Below, piece after piece: positions 6,596 to 9,262 of a stretch of 34,412 nucleotides of DNA. Positions within the stretch are counted from its first letter, which is position 1, and each line of letters starts with the position of its first letter. The translations under genes were made by a program, and so were the position numbers. Source of the stretch: Desulfurococcales archaeon (GTDB lineage Archaea; Thermoproteota; Thermoprotei_A; Sulfolobales; Ignicoccaceae); NCBI GenBank assembly GCA_027081755.1, contig JALWJF010000146.1, forward strand, positions 1 through 34,412. The letters run 5' to 3'. The notes beneath the pieces were generated by a model. It saw only the letters and a list, made by a program, of their open reading frames with translations, was not told the DNA's origin and ran no database searches.

Positions 6596-7972
6596 CTAGG
6601 AAGTTATAGAAGCTATAAATAATTCAATAGTTTTCTTTAAGGTATCATATACCTCCCTTGCCAACTTCGGGTTCAATGCCTCAACCATTATTCTGATAAC
6701 GGGCTCTGTACCAGAGGGCCTAACTAAGAACCAGAAGTCCTCACACACCACTTTCAAACCGTCAACTTCATCGAACTTACATGAAGAATATTTGTCCTTC
6801 AAATGTTCATACAAGTTCCTCATATTGAAGTTAGGGGGTCTCGGCACTTTCCCTTTAATTGGATATGTTTTGGGCAATTTGTCGAAGAGTTCAGAAGCCT
6901 TTTTCCCATAATATGCAAGCATTTCTAAGAACAAGGCTGTTTTCATAGCACCATCTCTAACTGGCTGATGTAATGGATGCATGTATCCACCATTTTCCTC
7001 GAAACCACTAAGTCCGCCTTCTCTGATCAGCGTGTGTGATATATTAACGCTGCCTACTGGAAGCCATCTAACTTCTATTCCCTTAGGTCCTAGGTATCCC
7101 TCAACCACGAAATGCGAGGAGGATACGGCTGTAAACGTTCTCTTGGGTAGTTGGGGGTACCTTTGAGACACATATTCGGTTAGAAGCGTTGCTGAGCGGT
7201 CACCCCAATGTACTCTTCCAGCGTCATCACCTATTATTGCTCTATCCGCATCCGCGTCATGACCAACGAGTAGGTCCGCACCAACTTCCCTAATTATTTT
7301 TGCTGCATAACCTAAGCTTGTAGGTGTTGGTTCAGGCTCCCTCCACGAAAAGGAGGGATCTAAATTACAGTTAAGGCATAATACCTTAGTACCCAACGAT
7401 CTCAATACTTTAGGTGTAGCTAGAGAGCCAACACTATTAGCTCCATCAACAACTACCTTGAACTCCTTTTTCTTTATCAAGTCAACATCAACCGAAGATA
7501 CAACGCCTTCAACATAAACTTCTAGAGCTTCATTTTCAACTCTTAGATCACTTACTAGATTATACGGTACTTTTCTGAATCGTTCGTTAAACAATATATC
7601 TTCTATTACCCTTTCAGCATTTCTTGGAACTTCCACACCATTAGCACCGATAACTTTGATTCCGTTATAAGGAGGAGGGTTATGGGAAGCCGTAACCATT
7701 ATTCCCATATCGTAGTTGAGTCTTGGGACAGCGTACTGAAGACCTGGAGTTGGTATTAGACCAGCATAGTATGGTTTACACCCACACGATGCTAACCCAG
7801 CCGAAACTGCACTAACTATCATATCTCCACCATATCGGACATCCTTACCAATGAGTACCTTTCCCCCACCCAACCATGTACAAGCAGCTTGGGCTATCTT
7901 CATGGCAAGCTCTGGCGTTAGACCTTCGTTTACAATGCCTCTGACACCATCCGTACCAAAGAGTTTGCCCAT
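6596..7972 (-). CDS. glmM: Phosphohexomutase (phosphoglucosamine mutase / phosphomannomutase family)
   Basis: FGTDGVRGIVNEGLTPE, catalytic serine motif VTASHNPPPYNGIKV, metal loop GHDADADRAIIGD, substrate loop RPSGTEPVIRIMVEA. Exact sugar specificity is not determinable. Confidence 0.9.
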   Translation of the reverse strand: MGKLFGTDGVRGIVNEGLTPELAMKIAQAACTWLGGGKVLIGKDVRYGGDMIVSAVSAGLASCGCKPYYAGLIPTPGLQYAVPRLNYDMGIMVTASHNPPPYNGIKVIGANGVEVPRNAERVIEDILFNERFRKVPYNLVSDLRVENEALEVYVEGVVSSVDVDLIKKKEFKVVVDGANSVGSLATPKVLRSLGTKVLCLNCNLDPSFSWREPEPTPTSLGYAAKIIREVGADLLVGHDADADRAIIGDDAGRVHWGDRSATLLTEYVSQRYPQLPKRTFTAVSSSHFVVEGYLGPKGIEVRWLPVGSVNISHTLIREGGLSGFEENGGYMHPLHQPVRDGAMKTALFLEMLAYYGKKASELFDKLPKTYPIKGKVPRPPNFNMRNLYEHLKDKYSSCKFDEVDGLKVVCEDFWFLVRPSGTEPVIRIMVEALNPKLAREVYDTLKKTIELFIASITS

Positions 7973-8017
7973 GTCTATCTATCCAGTTACTTACTAAAGT
8001 AGAAGCATTTTTTAGCC

Positions 8018-8068
8018 TCGGTTCGTGGGGACGCTCATCATCTCGCCGGTAATACCATTCTTCATCGG
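8018..8068 (-). ncRNA. Candidate C/D-box guide sRNA (sRNA-1)
   Basis: Minus strand CCGATGA(C)-AGAATGGTATTACCG-GCGA(D')-G-ATGATGA(C')-GCGTCCCCACGAA-CCGA(D). The C/D' guide contains TGGTATTACCG, complementary to CGGUAAUACCA of the crenarchaeal 16S 530-loop. Boxes C, D' and D deviate from consensus, and an alternative D' (CCGG) is possible. Confidence 0.45.
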
Positions 8069-8280
8069 CGTGCTATGTACTTACCCCATTTAATGTATTT
8101 TAGTATGATAAAGTAGCTTTTTGCGACAACACCCTTTTCATCACTGACACTTTCTATTGTCTTACCATCGAGAGTAGTTGCGATTAAGTGAGCCATGCCC
8201 TTTCCATCATCTACGATCTTTACGTCTTTTATTAATCCATTCATGGCCATTCCTTCTAAGTCCAATAACTGTGCTTTCAT
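8062..8280 (-). CDS. Small conserved-looking protein (72 aa), unknown function
   Basis: C-terminal in-frame part of the 8062..8544 ORF. ATG at 8280 gives MKAQLLDLEGMAMNGLIKDVKIVDDGKGMAHLIATTLDGKTIESVSDEKGVVAKSYFIILKYIKWGKYIARR. Upstream part of the ORF is antisense to the PhoU-like gene. A TATA-like element lies about 30 bp upstream. Confidence 0.6.
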   Translation of the reverse strand: MKAQLLDLEGMAMNGLIKDVKIVDDGKGMAHLIATTLDGKTIESVSDEKGVVAKSYFIILKYIKWGKYIARR

Positions 8281-8307
8281 AACACCATCATGGGAAACTT
8301 TGCAGTG

Positions 8308-8320
8308 CTTAAATTTAAAC
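8308..8320. promoter_or_regulatory. Palindromic TATA-like element, candidate bidirectional promoter
   Basis: CTTAAATTTAAAC (core TTTAAATTTAA/TTAAATTTAAA) in the 73-bp divergent region, roughly 34 bp from ATG 8280 (minus) and 40 bp from GTG 8354 (plus). Confidence 0.5.
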
Positions 8321-8353
8321 TTCTGCTTAGCCGGTATATACACGGATGATGAT

Positions 8354-9262
8354 GTGATAGAACAGAGAAGGTTAGTCAAGCTAGGAAGGTCAACTCTAGT
8401 GGTCTCGCTTCCCGCTGAGTGGGTCAAAAAACATAAACTAAAAGCTGGCGATATGCTCGTATTGCAGATAGCTGATAGATACATAAAGCTTATACCGGCG
8501 AAGAAAGATAGCAAAGAAATAAAAGCCATAATTAAGGTTAACAAAGATGTGCGAGGACTTTATAGAGCTATAATATCCGCGTACATAGCCGGAGCTGACA
8601 TAATAGAGGTAAACGTTAACAATGAAAAACTTGTACTCGAAGCAATGAAACAGATAAAGTATGCAGTCTCACACCTCATAGGCATCGAAATAGTTGATCA
8701 AGATATAGATAGGTTCATACTTCAAACTTTTATAAATGTTGATGAGCAGAACATAGATTCATTAATCAAGAAGATGGCCAGCTTAATAAGAATCATGCTC
8801 AGATACGTACTTCAAGGAACTGATGTAAAAAATTACATAGAAGATCTAGAAAATGAAGTTGACAAGCTATACCGTTTGGCACTGAGAAGACTTAATTTAG
8901 AGGGAGAGGGTGAAGCGCCCATGTCATCATTGCTTACCTCTCTGGAAAATGCATCAGACATAATATTGCCGCTAGTAGAGAACATAGCCAATACCAAAGA
9001 CGTGTACGATATACTTAACTTAGCTATTGAAATGCTCGACTTCATAAGTAAGTACGAGATTGGTAAAGGTAATATAATAGAAATAAATGATAAGACAGAT
9101 GCTATTGAACATATAGAGAAAGAGCTCAGTTCTAGGCAAATAGAAGAGAAATTAAAATACAGAAGCTTAATGCTTCTCCACCACATAAAGAATGCTCTAT
9201 TGTCGTTGCTTAATATCGAGATAACAAATATGATTAGGAATGAGCAAAAGATAGAGCTTTAG
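8354..9262 (+). CDS. Phosphate-uptake regulator-like protein: N-terminal AbrB/SpoVT-type domain plus PhoU-like domains
   Basis: RRLVKLGRSTLVVSLPAEWVKKHKLKAGDMLVLQI (AbrB fold) followed by helical PhoU-like repeats. Start moved from the track's 8195 to GTG 8354 because the first part of the ORF is antisense to the small gene. Confidence 0.78.
   Translation: MIEQRRLVKLGRSTLVVSLPAEWVKKHKLKAGDMLVLQIADRYIKLIPAKKDSKEIKAIIKVNKDVRGLYRAIISAYIAGADIIEVNVNNEKLVLEAMKQIKYAVSHLIGIEIVDQDIDRFILQTFINVDEQNIDSLIKKMASLIRIMLRYVLQGTDVKNYIEDLENEVDKLYRLALRRLNLEGEGEAPMSSLLTSLENASDIILPLVENIANTKDVYDILNLAIEMLDFISKYEIGKGNIIEINDKTDAIEHIEKELSSRQIEEKLKYRSLMLLHHIKNALLSLLNIEITNMIRNEQKIEL

Follow-up and report, generated by a model that had tools for sequence, protein, structure and literature searches.

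We analysed a 34,412-nt stretch of archaeal DNA (the window) and conclude, with high confidence, that its minus strand encodes a box C/D sRNA whose D' guide would direct 2'-O-methylation of A532 (E. coli numbering) in 16S rRNA. A sequence-only reading of the window had proposed a 2'-O-methylation guide of this class; the boxes, a 12-nt register, covariation, conservation, and the presence of genes for fibrillarin (E=4e-106) and Nop5 (Nop, E=4e-77) in the same genome all argue for it. Box C/D sRNAs are commonplace in archaea; what surprises here is the long-conserved pairing with one small gene.

The predicted sRNA occupies positions 8016..8069 of the minus strand, with ends that we infer from the box positions and from an alignment to Rfam models; its length, ~54 nt, lies within the 50 to 70 nt expected. 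The strand reads gcacGCCG-ATGAAGA-ATGGTATTACCG-GCGA-GATG-ATGAGCG-TCCCCACGAA-CCGA-GGCta, as it had been quoted before. From its 5' end, this corresponds to the first half of a terminal stem (GCC, 8067..8069), an adjoining k-turn bulge base (G8066), the C box (ATGAAGA, 8059..8065), the D' guide (12 nt, 8047..8058), the D' box (GCGA, 8043..8046), a 4-nt spacer (GATG, 8039..8042; 2 to 16 nt in orthologues), the C' box (ATGAGCG, 8032..8038), the D guide (10 nt, 8022..8031), the D box (CCGA, 8018..8021), and the second half of the terminal stem (GGC, 8015..8017), which is the partner of GCC. ATGAAGA and CCGA can form a k-turn on the GCC/GGC stem, with G3.A4, A4.G3, and G6-C1 all possible; C5/D2 in the source species is A.C, neither a standard pair nor U.U, and makes this an imperfect k-turn pair. 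CCGA recurs as the D box in relatives. GCGA and ATGAGC can form the D'/C' k-loop, in which the GC at C'5-C'6 pairs with the GC of D'.

This register differs from the one first proposed. All orthologues have a C box of the form RTGADGA, followed by exactly 12 nt and then NYGA. Part of this register was built into the pattern used to scan GTDB genomes, and blastn matches obtained without any pattern agree with the register, as do the Rfam sR41 and sR47 models, which align in the same frame. Hence, the C box here is ATGAAGA at 8065-8059, 3 nt downstream of the CCGATGA (8068-8062) originally chosen. The D' box had been correctly placed at GCGA; orthologues carry CTGA, TTGA, GTGA, GCGA, or ATGA at that position, and the occurrence of CTGA, TTGA, and GTGA there eliminates CCGG, the alternative D' box that had been considered. 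The original C' box, ATGATGA (8041-8035), had to be abandoned, since covariation between D' and C' places it at ATGAGCG (8038-8032), again 3 nt downstream. With C' moved and the spacer 4 nt long, the earlier objection that the D'-C' spacer is very short no longer holds.

The D' guide (5'-ATGGTATTACCG-3') contains an 11-nt segment, TGGTATTACCG, that is a perfect antisense match to CGGTAATACCA in 16S rRNA; the pairing lies directly beside D' and involves the sequence CGGUAAUACCA in the 530 loop of h18. The source assembly (159 contigs, 92% complete) gave no match to 16S or 23S rRNA. Hence, we read the target in eight related genomes, and the stretch GCCGCGGTAATACCAGC was identical in all eight. 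Within the guide, the segment TGGTATTACC was invariant in all aligned orthologues. The exact match to the 530 loop reported previously is thus correct. The N+5 rule selects the nucleotide opposite the fifth guide base, counted upstream from D', and here this is the A of CGGUA (E. coli A532); of the two targets entertained earlier, this was the right one, given the D' boxes of the orthologues. Dennis et al. (2015; PMC4644070) number E. coli A535 as A512 in archaea; on that scale, A532 is archaeal A509, a predicted target in three archaea in that study (Pca sR53 and Tte sR15 among the guides). In the accessible literature, we found A532/A509 as a prediction and found no experimental proof of its methyl group. 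We conclude from the guide and its register that the sRNA most likely directs a 2'-O-methyl mark onto A532, a nucleotide of the decoding centre.

A chaperone role has been proposed for archaeal C/D sRNAs (PMC4644070), and the D' guide might likewise act mainly in the folding of h18, with little or no methylation; GCGA and CCGA, both non-consensus D boxes, speak for this. However, a chaperone would need no fixed register, whereas the 12-nt spacing is exact, the D' register is strictly kept, and many relatives have CTGA at D', all of which fit the N+5 rule. We consider a mainly chaperoning function improbable and retain methylation guidance as the preferred reading.

We determined covariation between the boxes in 44 distinct orthologous sequences, with C' and D picked by rule and not by pairing. 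D'1-C'6 was a Watson-Crick pair in 41 of the 44 (GC 20, CG 14, TA 7), against a mean of 15.9 after shuffling, and D'2-C'5 in 24 (shuffled mean, 12.6); none of 20,000 shuffles reached either count. Sliding by one base destroyed the D'/C' signal; the shuffles ignore relatedness between genomes, and the slid controls keep it. C6-D1 was G-C in all 44 sequences, and covariation was modest at C5-D2 and strong at the flanks, where positions 1 to 4 were Watson-Crick in 30, 25, 26, and 21 sequences, respectively, compared to 11 to 15 after shuffling. These four positions make up the terminal stem, including GCC/GGC in the window, and the spacer stem covaried too. A ten-pair structure scored on a MAFFT alignment gave a covariation score of 0.395, compared to 0.151 for shuffled and at most 0.208 for slid alignments. 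Lastly, a C/D grammar applied to the two strands of the window yielded two matches, compared to none in 300 Markov-simulated windows; since the orthologues had supplied this grammar, the comparison is not fully independent.

When the locus was compared with related genomes by blastn, the best-conserved part was the sRNA and not the gene upstream of it. The GTDB pattern scan returned 49 stretches. About 45 came from Desulfurococcales-type archaea; the remainder were in bacterial records or lacked a C'/D partner. We built a covariance model, R1, on 39 orthologues, including that of the window. The model matches its own genome at C146:8013-8071 with an E value of 3e-13, a value to which the genome's own row contributes, and the E values of all 39 members are likewise not independent evidence. 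At E<=0.001, 99 of the 157 genomes in the order matched R1, usually once; at E<=1e-5, matches were found in 53 genomes of the order and in 3 of ~320 others in the phylum. A few weak or secondary matches corresponded to a related sister sRNA of the A535 type (see below), and the search did not find the sRNA in family f11. The sequence-only reading had named conservation of the boxes and guide in relatives as a check, and both are kept. Distribution in 99 of 157 genomes within the order and 3 of ~320 elsewhere in the phylum settles that the locus is more than chance.

Directly upstream on the same strand lies a gene for a 72-aa protein (8062..8280, minus strand), whose TGA stop codon (8064-8062) lies inside the corrected C box, bearing out the overlap that had been noticed between the stop and a C-like box. 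The sRNA and the small gene share a contig in 86 genomes. In 67 of these, from seven families, the sRNA follows the gene on the same strand at a distance of at most 345 nt; in 76, the distance is at most 2 kb. The two are far apart in family f7 and in some members of family f6. Each of the four congeners has the stop codon inside a box, three in the C box and one in the C' box; in the latter, genome G002 (L009, C1:180239-180297), the small-gene frame crosses the C box and the D' guide before ending at the C' TGA. Elsewhere, the sRNA persists where the small gene ends 10 to 60 nt upstream or sits at another place in the genome. In a family f8 genome (G011:C1:1235334-1235356), the small gene is followed after ~100 nt by an A535-type sRNA and the A532-type sRNA is 12.6 kb away, an arrangement that suggests a swap of related sRNAs at the small-gene site. 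The gene on the other side of the sRNA (6596-7972, minus strand) encodes a PGM/PMM-type sugar-phosphate mutase and was seen next to the sRNA only in the source genus. On the opposite strand, an ORF of 355 aa with a MazE/AbrB-type domain (8195-9262) overlaps the small gene only through an N-terminal extension; its real start probably lies further in.

This arrangement could also be read as a cis-acting regulatory element, in which L7Ae would bind a k-turn at the 3' end of the mRNA and no guide RNA would be made. Conservation of the position behind one small gene (67 of 86 genomes) and the stop codon within the k-turn motif in the source genus are consistent with this, and L7Ae-mediated control of archaeal mRNAs is reported (PMC5539422). 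However, a cis element would have no need for a near-invariant guide antisense to 16S rRNA; all four boxes are kept, and the element is conserved in family f7 though far from the gene. We regard this as very improbable. Chance or coding constraint at the 3' end of the 72-aa gene, which could draw on the partly coding C box and on the low rate at which 11-nt matches arise by chance, is refuted by conservation and covariation and has virtually no likelihood left: most of the sRNA follows the stop codon, it is kept where the gene ends 10 to 60 nt upstream or is elsewhere, and the non-coding boxes covary.

As a guide RNA, the sRNA would be transcribed together with the 72-aa gene, as the 3' portion of its transcript. 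A TATA-like sequence, TTTAAATTT (8311..8319, minus strand), located 5' of the gene, is a possible promoter for a common transcript, and inspection by eye showed no evident independent conserved promoter for the sRNA. L7Ae would bind the k-turn (C/D) and the k-loop (C'/D') and be joined by Nop5 and fibrillarin; trimming would remove the flanking RNA but spare the sRNA body, shielded by the resulting RNP. Base pairing of the D' guide with h18 would then let fibrillarin methylate A532, a neighbour of the decoding nucleotide G530. With the mRNA's stop codon inside the C box, a given copy of the transcript could serve as an intact mRNA or yield a mature sRNA, but could not do both. Archaeal C/D genes commonly lack promoters and overlap the 3' ends of ORFs, often with the stop codon in the C box, and their sRNAs mature by RNP protection (PMC7994747). 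The locus fits this model, and we infer its expression, processing, and methylation activity.

Across the order, 144 of 157 genomes have a single copy of the small gene; the homologues in family f11 are remote. The 72-aa protein had no significant match in Pfam or NCBIfam and no match in the PDB by sequence. An AlphaFold model of it was confident (mean pLDDT, 92.9) and has an alpha-beta-beta-beta-alpha (alpha-beta3-alpha) topology. A Foldseek search of the PDB with this model gave no convincing fold match (best E=0.027); SRP14 was among the weak matches (TM 0.64, E=0.17). As a linked, single-copy, and uncharacterised protein, it is now a candidate ribosome-assembly or RNA-binding factor. It is conceivable, though we think it rather unlikely, that the protein and the sRNA function together as one conserved unit, in which the protein, loosely similar to the RNA-binding fold of SRP14, would act in small-subunit assembly or on h18 and the shared transcript would choose between mRNA and guide RNA through the stop codon in the C box.

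The D guide retains a GCCC(C) core in many orthologues. We searched the 16S and 23S rRNAs of eight relatives for its target and found no site clearly above shuffled guides, and no convincing rRNA target emerged for the D guide of the window. The best rRNA site was matched by 15 guides, compared to up to 12 shuffled guides, and was not accepted, being driven by GC content. An apparent match to h17 of 16S rRNA in two species failed in others, and a match near 16S position ~550 in two clades was partial. The D guide may be an orphan or may have a tRNA or other target.

The window contains a second candidate box C/D sRNA at 18115-18063 (minus strand), with the sequence GTGAGGA-GACCGCCAGTGG-GCGA-agaaatg-ATGAGCG-GAGCCGAGTTGG-CTGA. 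Twelve nucleotides of its D' guide are antisense to the 23S rRNA stretch CCACTGGCGGTC, it has syntenic orthologues in two genomes (G001 and G003), and a grammar match like it occurred in none of 300 simulated windows.

We compared the locus with described sRNAs. In Pca sR53 and Tte sR15 (PMC4644070), one guide is likewise predicted to act on A509; as described, it is the D guide that is directed to A509 and the D' guide to C34/35 and C530, whereas here the D' guide is directed to A532. Tte sR114, Iho sR21, Pca sR28, and Sac sR115, which form the A512/G491 family (PMC4644070), resemble the locus in having a D' guide against the same 530-loop stretch. However, their D' box comes 3 nt earlier (TGGTATTA-CTGA) and is aimed at A535; with D' 3 nt further on, N+5 in our sRNA is A532 and not the A535 that characterises that family, and many genomes of the order have sRNAs of both types, at separate loci. 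Rfam gave no match in the window at gathering thresholds. Below these, the Pyrococcus families sR47 (RF01131; 25.0 bits, threshold 40) and sR41 (RF01126; 24.2 bits, threshold 54) aligned over their full length to 8016-8069 with E values of 2-3e-4; the boxes are shared (GCCGAUGAaGA, GAUGAUGA, and CUGAGG) and the guides differ. The known archaeal C/D repertoire gains an order-wide family of predicted A532 guides. Archaeal C/D genes overlapping the 3' end of an ORF were described by Tripp et al. in 2017 (reviewed in PMC7994747), and that review stresses how variable the context of C/D genes is. In contrast to this usual picture of fast-turning, context-free genes, the same small gene lies upstream of the A532-type sRNA across seven families, a rare case in which guide, register, and host gene are all conserved.
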